DNA of 64,000 bases, taken from assembly GCA_003712055.1 (NCBI GenBank), contig RHLJ01000003.1, forward strand, positions 1-64,000, read 5' to 3'. The position numbers and the translations under genes were made by a program. Positions 48,044-60,992 of this stretch are shown here, piece after piece; within the stretch, counting starts at the first letter, position 1; each line of letters begins with the position of its first letter. Below the pieces are notes generated by a model, which searched no databases, was not told the DNA's origin, and saw only the letters and a list, made by a program, of their open reading frames with translations. Origin of the DNA: Balneola sp. (GTDB taxonomy: Bacteria > Bacteroidota > Rhodothermia > Balneolales > Balneolaceae).

Positions 48044-48933
48044 CTATTCTGTATTCGATCTTTAATTTCGTACTTGTCTAACAACTCTCTCATCTTCTTT
48101 GAAAAGGCCGTTTGGTAATAAGCAGGCATCCGGTCCGAATGGTCAAAAAACCTGTGATACTTTTCTTCCAGATGTGGGTAATGACGTTTTATAGCTCTCA
48201 TTACGAGCTGTTTACTATCTGCAAGTCCTGAACCAAACAAAGAAATAGTAGCAGGGAAAATATAGTCCACACCAAGTCTTTTAAAGGTTGAAAAAGCTAA
48301 TTCAAGTTGTTCAGTGGTGTCTGATATATAGGGAATCAAAGGCATCAAACTAATCCCGGTTGTTAACCCTGAGTTTTTGACTTCTTCCACAGCTTTTAAT
48401 CTATCTGAAGGAGTTGTTGCTCCCGGTTCGAATATTCTGGCTACCTCATCCTGAAGTGTGGAAAAGGAAAAGGAGACCATCGCACTTCCTTCAAGTTTAC
48501 CTCCCAAGTCTTCTGGCAGAATAGAGACTCTATTTATCTCCTTGATCAAATCAATATCCCGAACTATGAGATCGGACTTGGTAATCATATGAACCGGAAA
48601 CCGATACTCTAAAATCACCTCTAACAATTGTCTGGTTAATCCAAGCTCTTCTTCAACTTTCAAATATGGATCGGTAGCGGATGAAAGCACAATAATTCCA
48701 TACTGTTGCTTCTTAGCCCTTCTTGCCAATTCCTTTTCCAACAATCCAACAGCATTCACTTTAACTGCTAATTTTTTCTCCATGTGTTCGCCATATTTAC
48801 TACCTCTTATATAGCAGTACAAGCAGTTGAAAGAGCATGCGCTAAATGGATTTAGCGTATAATCGTCCAGAAACCAGGGGTCTCTCCTCTTGGTTTTGTT
48901 GAGTATGGTTTTGCTTTCAATTTCTGAGACCAT
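48040..48933 (-). CDS. radical SAM protein, SPL-like group
   Basis: A 297-residue radical SAM enzyme with the CSFNCLYC iron-sulfur motif (three Cys, about residues 33-40), preceded by DPWFLDDYTLNPFSA. The sequence resembles the group often annotated as spore photoproduct lyase-like or Rv2578c-like radical SAM proteins (SSATDPYLKVEEELGLTRQL, HMITKSDLIVRDIDLI, EPGATTPSDRLKAVEEVKNS). Real substrates of this group are mostly unknown. It overlaps the upstream gene by 17 nt and lies among DNA-alkylation-repair-like genes, which makes a nucleic-acid role plausible. Confidence 0.82.
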   Translation of the reverse strand: MVSEIESKTILNKTKRRDPWFLDDYTLNPFSACSFNCLYCYIRGSKYGEHMEKKLAVKVNAVGLLEKELARRAKKQQYGIIVLSSATDPYLKVEEELGLTRQLLEVILEYRFPVHMITKSDLIVRDIDLIKEINRVSILPEDLGGKLEGSAMVSFSFSTLQDEVARIFEPGATTPSDRLKAVEEVKNSGLTTGISLMPLIPYISDTTEQLELAFSTFKRLGVDYIFPATISLFGSGLADSKQLVMRAIKRHYPHLEEKYHRFFDHSDRMPAYYQTAFSKKMRELLDKYEIKDRIQNS

Positions 48934-49747
48934 AACTATGCCTGCTTAAGCCAATCTTGATCTTGGTTCTAAACCACGAGCCAACCCCTTTACTGTAAAT
49001 CTCTTCCTCAAATTTTTGAATGATATCAGGATGGAATTTAGCCGTAGTCTTGGCTGCCCAGCCAATTCCTCTTCTGATATGATGATCTTTTGCTCCAGAA
49101 AGGCTGAGCAACACTTTAAAGGCTTCTTCAACTTCTGGCTTGGGGAGTCCCCATTTAATGGCGTTATGACAACCAGATCCAATCGCCCGAACCACCCACT
49201 TACTCTCATGGCTTTTTAGCTTCTCGAAAGTATCAATCATTCTTCCCGGATAATTCAGAAAAGCATGTCCAAATACTCTTTCTCCGATGATGTCTGATAC
49301 ATACCAATCCCAGGATTCAGAGATATATTTGATTGCTTTGTTGATAGATTCATCAAAATTCAGTCCAAGTCTGAGCTTAAGAATGGTGCCTATAAGTACA
49401 TTTTCTCCAATGGTCTGTGACCCTGTAAGCTTTTCACAGATTTCCAGATGTTCCTCAGGCTTTACTCTATGTACTATTTCTTGTCCGCAATATTCAAGAA
49501 GTGGAAATTTTACTTTATAGCTTAAAATCCTTTGATGAATGGCTGCCGCAAAAGAGTCAATACCTCCTGCTTCTAATGAAGAAAAGCATTCTTCAAGTTC
49601 TCTTTTGATTTCAGATTTTCTCGATATTTCTTCCAAGAGGTGTTCTTTTAGTACCTTTTCTTCTCCATGAAGAATGTAATGAATTAAATAGTGATGAAAA
49701 CTTTCCAAAAAGAATTCAGGCTTACAGCAAAACCTCGAGGCTTCCAT
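48917..49747 (-). CDS. HEAT-like / DNA-alkylation-repair-like protein
   Basis: Up to 276 residues, alpha-helical throughout, with the helical-repeat style of DNA alkylation repair proteins (ESKWVVRAIGSGCHNAIKWG, HHIRRGIGWAAKTTAKFHPD). The conserved WVVRAI/IRRGIGWA segments align loosely with AlkD-type HEAT repeats. The first ATG (49747) makes a 57-nt head-to-head overlap with the YjbQ gene; the true start is more likely a TTG near 49708. Overlaps the radical SAM gene at its 3' end. Confidence 0.6.
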   Translation of the reverse strand: MEASRFCCKPEFFLESFHHYLIHYILHGEEKVLKEHLLEEISRKSEIKRELEECFSSLEAGGIDSFAAAIHQRILSYKVKFPLLEYCGQEIVHRVKPEEHLEICEKLTGSQTIGENVLIGTILKLRLGLNFDESINKAIKYISESWDWYVSDIIGERVFGHAFLNYPGRMIDTFEKLKSHESKWVVRAIGSGCHNAIKWGLPKPEVEEAFKVLLSLSGAKDHHIRRGIGWAAKTTAKFHPDIIQKFEEEIYSKGVGSWFRTKIKIGLSRHSYGLRN

Positions 49748-50128: not shown

Positions 50129-50899
50129 ATGGCTTATAAACAACTAAAACTATGGTTTGACGGAGAACTGGCTACTCTTTTGGGGAATAAGATCATTGAA
50201 GCAGGACATTCTATTGATGTAGCTGCTTTTTCGACATCTATCGATGAACAGGTTCAGCCTTTAGAGCTAAAAGACCGGGTAGAAGTGATAGCCGATGAAC
50301 TGGATAGCTTTTTGGGAAAGAGCTATCTGAGAAACCTCACTGTTCTGCTTTCTATTCTCGGACCTGAAAATGAAGAAGAAACCGGGATGTTCGCCAATTT
50401 TTACTGGGTGATGCCCATTGCCAAATTCATTGAGAAGTACGGACTAGATAACTTTGAAGAATCCATGAATGGTATTAAAGAAATCACCAAAAGAAATACC
50501 GGTGAATACACCATTCGGCCATATATAGAGAAATACCCTGAAAGAACCATCGAGGTGATGGAAGAATGGTCTAAGGATTCCAACTTTCATGTTCGACGGC
50601 TTGCAAGCGAAGGAGGTAGACCACGTTTGCCATGGGCACCAAAGCTTGATCAATTTATAGATGATCCAAGCCCGCTGCTACCTATTCTTGAAAACCTGAA
50701 AGATGACACGAAGAAATATATACAGAAATCAGTGGCGAATTGCCTGAATGATATTTTGAAGGACAATCCTGAGATCGCAAAAGCTATAATTGAAAACTGG
50801 AAAAAAGATGCGACCAAAGAAAGAGCTTGGATCATTAAACACGCTCTACGCAATCTTCTAAAAAAAGAAGATGCATGGGCGTTATTGATAGTAAAGTAA
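50129..50899 (+). CDS. DNA alkylation repair protein, AlkC/AlkD-like
   Basis: A 256-residue helical-repeat protein. The segment NFHVRRLASEGGRPRLPWAP is a strong signature of AlkC-type DNA alkylation repair proteins, which excise N3-alkylated adenine. The C-terminal repeats (KYIQKSVANCLNDILKDNPE, RAWIIKHALRNLLKKED) are HEAT-like. It follows the YjbQ gene by 12 nt and probably shares its transcript. No terminator is obvious; a repeat element follows. Confidence 0.85.
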   Translation: MAYKQLKLWFDGELATLLGNKIIEAGHSIDVAAFSTSIDEQVQPLELKDRVEVIADELDSFLGKSYLRNLTVLLSILGPENEEETGMFANFYWVMPIAKFIEKYGLDNFEESMNGIKEITKRNTGEYTIRPYIEKYPERTIEVMEEWSKDSNFHVRRLASEGGRPRLPWAPKLDQFIDDPSPLLPILENLKDDTKKYIQKSVANCLNDILKDNPEIAKAIIENWKKDATKERAWIIKHALRNLLKKEDAWALLIVK

Positions 50900-56796: not shown

Positions 56797-58422
56797 TCAC
56801 TCTTCTAGCAAATTTTCAACTAAAGCCGCTAACTCCTGACCGCGAACCAGGTCAATCAATGCTTCGATGTCTTCCCGAAGAAAACGATCTTCCATAACCA
56901 TCTCAATATGACTGCGAATCAAGGTGTGTATTGCCTCAGTTTTCGGTGACATTTTCATCGGGTGCATACGATCTCGAATAAGGTCAATGGCTTGTGCAGC
57001 AAGCATTAACTCAATGGCCAATACTTGCTCGCACATATCCAGGTTTAACTGCAAATCATACAAAGAACTATTACCCATGCTATTGTGGTCTTCTTGCATG
57101 CTTTTTCCTGATAGGGAATGGATGCTTGCTGGCGTAGCTTGCTGACGCATTTGCCCAATAATAGAGAGTTGGAGAGACTGAACTTGTACCATACCAGAGT
57201 TGAGCCCAGGCTGACCGCCGGCCAGGTTGGCGGGGAGTCCATAGCTAGCTTGAGGTGAAATCAGTCGTGCGGAACGTGACTCAGAAAGACCAGCTACATC
57301 AGTAAGGACAATATTGAGGTAATCTAAAAGGTGCGCCATATGAGAACCATCGTAATTTCCACCCATTACAACATCAAAGCAATCTGGTTGCTCTATATTC
57401 CGAAAGACAAGTGGATTCATAGACGCGGCATTGATCTCTCGGTTCATCGCATCGGACACGAAGCTATAGGTCTCCCGTAACGACCCATAAATATGCGGTG
57501 TTGAGCGGAGGCTAACTGCATCCTGTATACGTGGGTTAACTTCACCAAGACGTGCACGTCCTTCATCTGTTGTCCACTCGCTACCTTTTAGAAGAGTGCG
57601 TGCTGTATGTGCCGAAATAATCTGACCAGGTATATCACGCGATTCATGAATACGGTAGTCTAATGCACCTATTTCACCGCGGAGAGCCTCCATGGTCAGG
57701 GCGAAACAAGCCTCCATCACATAAAGAAGATGTTTTATCCGGTAAAGCGAATAAACCGCACCCGCTGCTAATACGGTGCTACCGCTAATAATCGAAAGGG
57801 CCTCCTCTATCTCCAAAGTAAATAATGGATCAACTCCTGCTCTCGCGAGTATGTCTGGCGCGGAACCAATATCGCCGTTGTATTTGGCCACACCATGCGG
57901 ACTACCTGCCATTACTAGTCCGAGTGCGGCCATTGGTTGCAGGTCACCACTACCCAGAGATCCCTCCCATGGCATAATGGGAATCACACCAGCATTCAAC
58001 AAATCCAAGTAACGTTGGATCAAATCTATACGGATACCAAACGAACCACTGCTAGCAACATTGGCCCTAAGTAGCAGGGCAATTCGAGAAATCTGATCGC
58101 AAAAGGGTTGACCTATGCCCGTCGCATGAGATTCCAGTATCCTCATTTGAAAGTCGATCTGTTCTTCACTCACTAATACCTTGTCTTTTAAGGGACCCAA
58201 TCCTCTTGTCAATCCGTAAATAGGTCGCCCTTCTGCTAACCATTTTCGAACCTGATCGTTAGAGGCCTTAACATTCCCCGCTGCTTCAGGTTCAAGTTTA
58301 ACCTCGCAAGATTCAGCCGCTAAAAAACGGAAAACGTCCTCTACCTGAAGCGACTTTCCATCTAACATGAAAGAGAAGGTCTCGCGATTGACCGAGTCGT
58401 TTTTATAAGGTGAATTCGCCAT
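56797..58422 (-). CDS. divergent MIO-type ammonia-lyase / aminomutase homologue
   Basis: A 541-residue protein of the histidine/phenylalanine/tyrosine ammonia-lyase superfamily. Kept motifs: Tyr69 in IYGLTRGLGPL, Ser98-His99 in ESHATGIG (as in histidine lyases), VSLRSTPHIYG with Arg306, GGNYDGSHMA, and SMQEDHNSMG. Unusual: the MIO-forming Ala-Ser-Gly loop is one residue shorter and reads Gly157-Ser158-Gly159 (EGSLGSGDLQPMA). The conserved Asn of INGT is Ser213 (IISGST), and the Tyr of DxYSLR is Val303. It may be catalytically altered, an aminomutase, or a lyase of unusual chemistry. Arg codons of the CGN type are frequent. Divergent from the next gene. Confidence 0.85.
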   Translation of the reverse strand: MANSPYKNDSVNRETFSFMLDGKSLQVEDVFRFLAAESCEVKLEPEAAGNVKASNDQVRKWLAEGRPIYGLTRGLGPLKDKVLVSEEQIDFQMRILESHATGIGQPFCDQISRIALLLRANVASSGSFGIRIDLIQRYLDLLNAGVIPIMPWEGSLGSGDLQPMAALGLVMAGSPHGVAKYNGDIGSAPDILARAGVDPLFTLEIEEALSIISGSTVLAAGAVYSLYRIKHLLYVMEACFALTMEALRGEIGALDYRIHESRDIPGQIISAHTARTLLKGSEWTTDEGRARLGEVNPRIQDAVSLRSTPHIYGSLRETYSFVSDAMNREINAASMNPLVFRNIEQPDCFDVVMGGNYDGSHMAHLLDYLNIVLTDVAGLSESRSARLISPQASYGLPANLAGGQPGLNSGMVQVQSLQLSIIGQMRQQATPASIHSLSGKSMQEDHNSMGNSSLYDLQLNLDMCEQVLAIELMLAAQAIDLIRDRMHPMKMSPKTEAIHTLIRSHIEMVMEDRFLREDIEALIDLVRGQELAALVENLLEE

Positions 58423-58510
58423 TTTTTTTGTGCTTCAAGAGTTTGGACTAGCAGTCTAAGTTATATTTTATATTTTACAATCTACGGACAGAGATAATTT
58501 TAAAAAAGAT

Positions 58511-58516
58511 AGGAGC
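58511..58516 (+). promoter_or_regulatory. ribosome binding site of the adenylating enzyme
   Basis: TAGGAG about 9 nt upstream of ATG 58525 is a clear Shine-Dalgarno sequence, stronger than those of most surrounding genes. The 58423-58510 gap contains divergent AT-rich sequence with no definite promoter. Confidence 0.5.
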
Positions 58517-58524
58517 CAACTAAA

Positions 58525-59616
58525 ATGATCACTGAAATTTTAGATCAACGAATTGGATCTGAAGTTAAAGAAAAAGACTTCATCGCAGCTGCAATGAGCT
58601 GGCATTTCAATCCGAATACTGGCTCACCCTATTGGGTTGAAAGAAGTAAAATATTGGGTTTTGACCCTCAGAAAGAAATAAAGACCTTCGCAGATCTACA
58701 GAAGTTTCCAAATGTAGTAGATGAGATGCGAAAAGTACCGGTTCAAAACCTTATCCCTGTGGGCTATGGCCCGAAACCCCCTGTTTTCGGTGTATTTGAC
58801 TCCGGTGGTACTACCGGAATCCCTAAGCGCGTCGTAGTTCTCGAAGATTGGGTGAACCTTCAACTTAGTTGGCAAGATGAAAAGGTCGCGGCTCATGGAA
58901 TTCTACCAGGCAAAAATATTTGTTACGTCGGTCCTTCGGGGCCTCATATGTTTGGTGCTTATACTGCGGAAAGGGCACGGAGAACCCGAGGCTTGAATTT
59001 CCCAATAGATCTGGATCCCCGTTGGGTGAAACGTAGCTTAGAAGCTGGACACAAGGAAGAGGTTGAGCGGTATGTTCGTCACCTTGTTGAGCAAGCAAGT
59101 ACTATTTTAGAGACTCAGGATATAGGGCTCCTAATCACAACACCACCTTTACTTGAGCGCATGGCTCGCGAAGATAAACTGGTTGATTTAATAAATGAAA
59201 AAGTAACCGGTATTCAATGGGGTGGTGCGCACATGGATGCCGATACACGCGAGCTTTACCGTAATAAGGTTTTTCCAGAGGTCTCCCTGGTTGGTAACTA
59301 TGGCAGTGCTATGATGCTTGGCGGAGTGATCGAGCGACCCGAGAAGCGTAATGACGACCTTTGTGTATTCGATCCTCTCTCTCCCTTCGTAACCTTCAAG
59401 GTTGTTCATCCTGATACTCACGAAGAAGTACCCTATGGCGAACGAGGTCAGTTGTTAATGCATCATATTAGTAGAAATATGTTTTTGCCTAATAATCTCG
59501 AGAGAGATATGGGAACAAGAGTTGAAGCCCTTTCGGGACACTTAGGTGATGCTGTTGCGGATGTTTATCCAGTTCAAACATTTGAGGGAAAGACAGTAAT
59601 CGAAGGAGTCTATTAA
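58525..59616 (+). CDS. EhpF/LuxE-like adenylate-forming enzyme without C-terminal domain
   Basis: A 363-residue member of the ANL (acyl-AMP-forming) superfamily. It has the phosphate-binding loop DSGGTTGIPK (Ser93-Gly98), QWGGAHMDAD, GNYGSAMML (258-264, the A5-type region) and a PYGERGQLLMHH strand. It lacks the ~100-residue C-terminal domain with the catalytic lysine, so thioester formation is unlikely. This is the architecture of EhpF, the atypical phenazine-pathway adenylating enzyme, and close to LuxE in length. It is 2 nt upstream of the LuxC-like gene, so the two are almost certainly co-translated. Predicted to activate a carboxylate as an adenylate. Confidence 0.85.
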   Translation: MITEILDQRIGSEVKEKDFIAAAMSWHFNPNTGSPYWVERSKILGFDPQKEIKTFADLQKFPNVVDEMRKVPVQNLIPVGYGPKPPVFGVFDSGGTTGIPKRVVVLEDWVNLQLSWQDEKVAAHGILPGKNICYVGPSGPHMFGAYTAERARRTRGLNFPIDLDPRWVKRSLEAGHKEEVERYVRHLVEQASTILETQDIGLLITTPPLLERMAREDKLVDLINEKVTGIQWGGAHMDADTRELYRNKVFPEVSLVGNYGSAMMLGGVIERPEKRNDDLCVFDPLSPFVTFKVVHPDTHEEVPYGERGQLLMHHISRNMFLPNNLERDMGTRVEALSGHLGDAVADVYPVQTFEGKTVIEGVY

Positions 59617-59618
59617 TT

Positions 59619-60992
59619 ATGCCATCTCCTGATACTCTCATCCCGATTGACTCCATTGGCCCAAGTGGTTCCTACCGAACTCGCCGTCATACCATAGTCA
59701 AGGATGTTCGTGGCGTGCCTACTCTTCGCCTGAGCTTAATTCCTCGTCTATTCTTATGGCGCAGTATCTCAGCGATGCATAAAGCAGCACCGAAATCAGT
59801 GGAAAAAAGAGCTGAAATATTGGCGAAAGCGGGAGAAATATTTTCCACTGAATCTATCGATGGCATGTCTCCAGACACCTACCAACGCATGGTGAGCCGT
59901 ATCTGCGGTTTACCTCTATATATGGCCCGTAAATCAACGGAAATAATAGCCGAATCTGCAATCAAAGCATATCAAACATCGGCATTTGCCCGTCCATTAG
60001 CTGCTGTCGACGATTGGAGAGCGCCCCAAACTTTAGATGGAGGAGCTGTGTGGGTTCGCAGAGGTAACATATTTGGTGTTCTTGCTTCAGGAAACACACC
60101 TAGTGTTCACTCACTTTGGCTTGAAGCATTGGCACTCGGGTATAAAGTAGTAGTTCGCCCTTCCCAACGCGAGCCACTAACTCCTTACCGATTAATTCGA
60201 GCTCTGCATATGGCAGGTTTTGACACTGATCAAATCATGTTTCTACCGACGAACCATGCAGAAGCTGAAGATATCGTCGAGGCATCCGATTTGTCTATAG
60301 TATATGGCGGTGATGCCATGGTTCAAAAATACCATAATCGCCCCACCGTACTAACTGAGGGCCCGGGACGATCCAAAATTCTTATCACGGAAGATGCCTG
60401 GCAAGAAAGCATGGATATGATCATCGAATCCGTTGCTGGAAAAGGCGCAACTAACTGTATTAATACCACGGCTATATTTGTCGAAGGCGACCCGGCTCCA
60501 TTTGCAAAGGCTCTTGCCGACCGCTTAGCAAAAATGCCGAGCCACCCGCCAGATCATGATAAAGCGATTTTACCTGTACAGCAGCTGGATCAGGCATTAG
60601 CACTAGAAAATCTATTGCATCAACGTGCGCTTGGAACAAAGCCTATATTAAATGAAGTGGTTCATGATCTTGGAGACGGAGCTGCTGTCTTACGCCCAGC
60701 AGTCTTTCTTCTTAATGATCCAAACGCATCGCAAACAAGAGTTGAATTGCCCTTTCCTTGCGTATGGGTTGCACCTTGGTCAAAGGACTATGGAATACCT
60801 CCACTAAAAGATACCTTAGTTTTAACAGCGATTACTCGAGATGAAGAACTTATAGACAGTTTGCTCAATGAACCATCCATACTTAACCTTTATCTAGGAA
60901 ATACACCAACTACTTTCCTGGAACCGGGTATTCCACATGATTCATATTTAGGTGAATTCCTGATGCGAACTAAAGGAGTAGCTCGGAATTGA
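59619..60992 (+). CDS. EhpG/LuxC-like aldehyde-forming reductase
   Basis: A 457-residue protein of the LuxC acyl-CoA reductase / aldehyde dehydrogenase superfamily. Cofactor-binding segments are LASGNTPSVHSLWLEALALG (about 155-174) and VVVRPSQREPLTPYRL. The catalytic cysteine is Cys280 in GKGATNCINTTAIFVEG. LuxC reduces a fatty acyl thioester with NADPH; EhpG is proposed to accept an acyl-adenylate product from EhpF. No luxA, luxB or luxD is present, so light production is not implied. Likely product is an aldehyde of unknown identity. Confidence 0.85.
   Translation: MPSPDTLIPIDSIGPSGSYRTRRHTIVKDVRGVPTLRLSLIPRLFLWRSISAMHKAAPKSVEKRAEILAKAGEIFSTESIDGMSPDTYQRMVSRICGLPLYMARKSTEIIAESAIKAYQTSAFARPLAAVDDWRAPQTLDGGAVWVRRGNIFGVLASGNTPSVHSLWLEALALGYKVVVRPSQREPLTPYRLIRALHMAGFDTDQIMFLPTNHAEAEDIVEASDLSIVYGGDAMVQKYHNRPTVLTEGPGRSKILITEDAWQESMDMIIESVAGKGATNCINTTAIFVEGDPAPFAKALADRLAKMPSHPPDHDKAILPVQQLDQALALENLLHQRALGTKPILNEVVHDLGDGAAVLRPAVFLLNDPNASQTRVELPFPCVWVAPWSKDYGIPPLKDTLVLTAITRDEELIDSLLNEPSILNLYLGNTPTTFLEPGIPHDSYLGEFLMRTKGVARN

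Follow-up and report, generated by a model that had tools for sequence, protein, structure and literature searches.

The gene on the minus strand at 56797..58422 of the window (the whole 64,000-nucleotide stretch of Balneola sp. DNA that was analysed) encodes a 541-aa protein with the aromatic-amino-acid-lyase fold and a putatively MIO-less active site. It starts with ATG and remains open throughout, in agreement with an earlier sequence-only reading that had reported an intact frame over 541 codons. The match to PF00221 (Lyase_aromatic) spans residues 25–503 and is full length (E = 1.3e-126). The score against the hutH equivalog TIGR01225 is 377.3 bits, below the cut-off of 539.15, and the protein falls far under the cut-off of each NCBIfam equivalog for histidine ammonia-lyase (HAL), TAL, PAL and the aminomutases. 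An ordinary HutH with ASG, INGT and DPYSIR motifs is encoded separately, on contig C4 of the same genome. The AF2 model of the protein (mean pLDDT 83.2, pTM 0.87) matches HAL, TAM and ergothionase structures over about 480–500 residues, with Z values of 38–39 for HAL and an equal closeness to ergothionase (Z 37.7, 2.6 Å, 485 residues); fold searches with the model do not tell HAL and ergothionase apart. Fumarases, adenylosuccinate lyase and trans-aconitate decarboxylase gave weak matches (Z 12–13). Loops 295–300, 403–407 and 437–444 of the modelled active site have pLDDT values below 50, and no geometry is claimed for them.

In HAL, the MIO position is occupied by Ala-Ser-Gly, whereas the corresponding loop of the window protein is shortened to G157-S158-G159 (57946..57954, minus strand). 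HMMER introduces a one-residue gap in this loop (GSLG-SGDL in the window protein versus GSVGASGDL in Pseudomonas putida HAL), and MAFFT, which places the gap as HMMER does, aligns GSLG-SGDLQPM with GS(L/V/M)GASGDLAPL in 15 of 15 HALs. The change can be described as deletion of the Ala, or as replacement of Ala by Gly with a preceding deletion; the loop is one residue short in both descriptions. Chance misalignment of the loop was ruled out because the two programs place the gap identically, and a simple shift of the Ala does not account for it. The Asn of the INGT motif (HAL N195) is replaced by Ser213 (57784..57786, minus strand; ISGS), and the Tyr of the DxYSLR motif (HAL Y280) by Val303 (57514..57516, minus strand; DAVSLR). 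Tyr69 of the YG motif (58216..58218, minus strand; Y53 in both HAL and ergothionase), His99, Arg306 and the QEDH motif (443–446) are kept. Thus the sequence-only reading, which had described a shortened loop in an otherwise well-aligned region, loss of the Asn and Tyr, and retention of Tyr69, Arg306 and QEDH, was accurate in each respect, including the position of the loop. Alignment revealed further changes that it had not listed. Lys79-Asp80, which follows the YG motif (58183..58188, minus strand), is present in every member of the window clade and in all five ergothionase-type proteins compared, and Lys occurs at the K79 position in none of the 15 HALs. Asp358 (57349..57351, minus strand) takes the place of the GGNFH histidine (GGN-Y-D358-G versus GGN-F-H-G in HAL).

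These changes are shared by proteins from distant bacteria. A homologue with 67% identity is present in the high-GC MAG Co_bin.8 (L003), which is unrelated to the window genome, and homologues with 43–45% identity occur in Nonomuraea gerenzanensis (L030) and Embleya (L031). The short loop, the Asn to Ser and Tyr to Val replacements, K79-D80 and D358 are found in all four members of this clade, which come from three distant bacterial groups. Decay or sequencing error was ruled out, since independent genomes carry the identical change, and the sequence comparison supports active-site changes that are concerted and conserved across distant bacteria. In this respect the proposal of altered chemistry rather than decay is supported, with chemistry independent of MIO as the likely form, although the alteration is not unprecedented, as ergothionase precedes it. 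The MAG copy has the same Ser158 and Gly159 as the window protein, whereas the loop Ser is Thr in both actinomycete members; therefore, the residue that would supply the MIO methylidene is not conserved in the clade. A close relative combining a Gly-Ser-Gly loop with ordinary lyase activity was looked for, and none was found. Further clade members were absent from 295 other Bacteroidota-side genomes of the window's phylum, from 293 other genomes of the MAG's phylum, from 396 genomes of the Actinobacteria-side phylum (a set without a positive control) and from IMG/VR. A scan of genome contigs returned the MAG copy and ordinary HALs only. Phage matches to the protein had about 33% identity and were HAL-like. 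No account of the window clade was found in the literature searched.

Divergent from the lyase-like gene, with 102 bp between the start codons, lies a plus-strand gene (58525..59616) for a 363-aa EhpF/GriC-like AMP-forming acid-activating enzyme, which matches EhpF (PDB 3hgu/3l2k) at E about 3e-78 and contains an SGGTTG loop. It is followed by a plus-strand gene (59619..60992) for a 457-aa EhpG/GriD-like acyl reductase of the Aldedh/LuxC type (PF00171 and PF05893), which has 34% identity to the protein that occupies the EhpG position in a plasmid-borne phenazine cluster of E. coli. The pair has the layout of an EhpF-type adenylating enzyme with a tandem Aldedh/LuxC-type reductase and is predicted to be an EhpF/EhpG (GriC/GriD)-type two-component carboxylic acid reductase that would convert an aryl carboxylate to its aldehyde. 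A passage of PMC10179220 citing Suzuki 2007 describes GriC/GriD as an AMP-binding protein and a reductase that together convert 3-amino-4-hydroxybenzoate to its aldehyde. Elsewhere in the window, two DNA alkylation repair (PF08713) proteins are encoded on opposite strands beside a radical SAM protein (48917-49747 and 50129-50899).

The linkage of the lyase-like gene to the reductase pair is conserved in two unrelated genomes. In the MAG, an ehpF-like gene, 69% identical to that of the window, is likewise divergent from the lyase-like gene and ends at the contig edge at residue 271; a second contig, which presumably adjoins the first, starts with ehpF-like residues 269–363, followed by an ehpG-like gene (63% identical to the window). 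The actinomycete homologues have no reductase neighbour, and none was present on the Embleya replicon. Two congeners of the window organism conserve the flanking birA-tilS-hprt block, and the three genes are absent from the 19-kb stretches around it. A search of 127 other genomes of the order returned no ehpF-like gene. The GC content across the three genes (56797-60992) is 0.43–0.48, compared with about 0.33–0.42 in the flanks. The raised GC content, together with these absences, suggests that the three-gene unit was gained horizontally. An EgtD-family (PF10017) methyltransferase is present in both module-bearing genomes (in the window genome at L072, G000:C2:31614-32507), and histidine betaines may therefore be available in them. 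It is also present in both congeners tested, which do not have the module, so the link between EgtD-type betaines and the module is not specific.

Most of the substitutions have a counterpart in ergothionase, the ergothioneine trimethylamine-lyase of Treponema denticola (PDB 6s7j/6s7q), which has the same ammonia-lyase fold. Its loop, SSIG-EGDI, equals that of the window protein in length and is one residue shorter than that of HAL. The Asn is replaced by Ser in SIVSCN, as at Ser213, and the Tyr by Leu in QDPLSFR, where the window protein has Val303. The Lys-Asp pair is found in YGLNRGVGWNKD as in YGLTRGLGPLKD of the window protein, ergothionase has NFE in place of the NFH of HAL, and equivalents of its Tyr53, His83, Arg280 and Glu411 are retained in the window protein. 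Ergothionase eliminates trimethylamine by acid/base catalysis that depends on essential residues. We compared five ergothionase-type proteins, namely 6s7j, which alone is characterised, and those of Polaromonas, Paracoccus and Sinorhizobium (two). At 42 positions the window clade is invariant and has a residue absent from the 15 HALs; K79 and S213 are the two that are common to all five ergothionase-type proteins, counting as trivial the start Met that both groups share, and F91 is found in four. Position 358 is acidic (Asp or Glu in the ergothionase-type proteins) and position 303 is non-aromatic and never Tyr in both groups. The loop, Asn and Tyr changes thus largely represent a known, ergothionase-type MIO-free signature; ergothionase is described as lacking MIO in a passage of PMC13405746 citing Maurer 2019. 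The two groups differ at IEDH (QEDH in the window protein), at SAN(F) in SANFEI (GGNYDG in the window protein and GGN(Y/W)D in its clade) and at the Lys of IQK (Ser/Thr in the VQ(S/T) of the window clade), positions that also vary in some ergothionase-like proteins.

When the motif columns were left out, both clades were recovered with high support, at 100/100 for the window clade and 100/99 for the ergothionase-type clade. In the best tree, they join, together with a Rhizobium protein (L052), at 45/25; with the motif columns kept, the window–ergothionase grouping had an SH-aLRT value of 92. With a smaller sequence set, the AU p value for a group of window and ergothionase proteins was 0.48, and monophyly was neither rejected nor shown. 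An AU p value of 0.0096 against this group was not used: L052, a member of the ergothionase group, was missing from the tested set, and when it is added the best tree itself contains the grouping. The window proteins form their own fully supported clade, distinct from the ergothionases, and their placement as sisters is weak given the long branches. Given the low support for the join, MIO may have been lost in a single event or in two.

Other genes without ASG were noted on plasmids of Rhizobium (L052:1980-3485, GSIGAADL), Agrobacterium (L051:3019-4512, GSVGYLTH), Klebsiella (L053:2950-4482, GSVGYLIA) and Sinorhizobium (L054:1926-3566, GSVGQADM). All four also lack Tyr280, some adjoin glycine-betaine-type transporters, and L052, L051 and L053 are annotated as hutH or aromatic amino acid ammonia-lyase; they are probably misannotated MIO-less lyases. 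By inspection, the Sinorhizobium protein and the two actinomycete homologues (L030:7863-9590 and L031:7737-9557) have an N-terminal hydrophobic, signal-peptide-like segment and may act outside the cytoplasm, while the window and MAG proteins have no such N-terminus.

MIO enables the departure of a poor leaving group, the amine. In a family member that has no MIO, the substrate itself must come with an acidified β-hydrogen or with a leaving group that departs easily, as ergothioneine does. Because the loop is short in four of four clade members and its Ser is Thr in the actinomycetes, the window protein almost certainly carries no MIO. The conserved HAL-site residues Tyr, His, Arg and Glu argue for catalysis. 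The Tyr, Arg and Glu, combined with the newly gained Lys and Asp, are consistent with acid/base elimination, and MIO-free elimination by this protein is rather likely. The adjoining carboxylate reductase suggests an unsaturated acid as the next substrate. We therefore favour, with a probability of roughly 0.6, a cofactor-free lyase whose unsaturated acid product is reduced to an aldehyde by the EhpF/EhpG-like pair. In such a scheme, Tyr69, together with His99, Arg306 and Glu444, would bind and deprotonate a β-aryl or similar carboxylate substrate whose leaving group is a good one and may be a quaternary ammonium, and Lys79/Asp80 and Asp358 would occupy the MIO pocket and supply its charge. An ergothionase-like, cofactor-free 1,2-elimination would follow; the EhpF/GriC-like neighbour would adenylate the α,β-unsaturated acid, and the EhpG/GriD-like enzyme would then reduce it to the aldehyde. 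We infer lyase activity, the leaving group, the substrate and the action of the three enzymes in series. The position of a lyase-like gene beside a two-gene reductase suggests an undescribed elimination-and-reduction step. A stronger version, in which the clade is a separate MIO-free lineage that arose independently of ergothionase, does not have ergothioneine as its substrate and supplies its unsaturated acid to a dedicated two-component reductase in a new natural enal route, is tentative and somewhat doubtful.

Several other explanations were weighed. The protein could be a divergent ergothionase, acting on ergothioneine or histidine betaine as a trimethylamine-lyase, that automatic annotation would name HAL: it has the short loop, S213, the lost Tyr, K79 and an acidic residue 358 in common with these enzymes, its genome encodes an EgtD homologue, and the best tree sets its clade beside them. 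We consider this unlikely, as identity to 6s7j is no higher than to HAL, IEDH, SANF and the IQK lysine are not conserved, and the neighbouring carboxylate reductase is unlike the neighbours of the ergothionase-like genes examined. Since characterised PF00221 relatives that were found all carry out elimination or aminomutation, and the protein still has both the catalytic Tyr and the Arg that binds the carboxylate, it also seems improbable that it has a non-lyase activity, for instance isomerisation, hydration, decarboxylation or acyl modification of the EhpF/EhpG product, even though the steps of the three-gene module may run in another order and the L-aspartase-like fold includes the fumarases, adenylosuccinate lyase and trans-aconitate decarboxylase that the model matched at Z 12–13.

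Loss of the cofactor residues might instead indicate a catalytically dead scaffold or pseudoenzyme, which is very unlikely considering the 67% identity between distant genomes, the invariance of the rest of the active site and the invariance of the new charged residues. An ordinary ammonia-lyase in which Gly-Ser-Gly cyclises to an MIO-like group is most improbable. Gly in place of the Ala is possible in principle, and Ser158 and Gly159 are kept in two members, but the loop is one residue short, its Ser is Thr in the other two, the two MIO-contacting residues, Asn and Tyr, are missing, and ergothionase, with a loop of equal length, has no MIO according to the same passage of PMC13405746. If the favoured reading of a cofactor-free lyase coupled to a reductase is correct, MIO-free catalysis in the ammonia-lyase fold would reach a second clade and several phyla beyond ergothionase, and the three-gene pathway is open to test. 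The co-changing positions (short loop, N to S, Y to V/L, new Lys and His to Asp/Glu) would flag MIO-incapable proteins currently labelled histidine ammonia-lyase.

Among known systems, HAL (HutH; P. putida 1gkj/1b8f and T. cruzi 6v6h) has the same fold over its full length, about 31–33% identity to the window protein and the same Tyr, His, Arg, Glu and QEDH residues; the window protein differs in having no Ala-Ser-Gly, INGT Asn or DxYSLR Tyr and in having Asp for the GGNFH His. The tyrosine and phenylalanine aminomutases, PAL and TAL share the fold at 22–28% identity but all form MIO from (A/T)SG. The EhpF/EhpG pair of the griseoluteic acid phenazine pathway and the GriC/GriD pair of grixazone have tandem AMP-forming and Aldedh/LuxC-type genes, as in the window. 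The EhpF/EhpG-type pairs examined lie in shikimate- or phenazine-type clusters with no ammonia-lyase homologue nearby, whereas the window pair partners an MIO-less protein; three of them (L032, L034 and L035), in plasmid clusters of Burkholderia, Streptomyces and E. coli, are accompanied by DAHP synthase or isochorismatase/anthranilate-synthase-type genes. Ergothionase 6s7j has 28% identity to the window protein, and the ergothionase-like genes examined adjoin transporter, hut or ornithine cyclodeaminase-family genes, whereas the window gene adjoins a carboxylate reductase.
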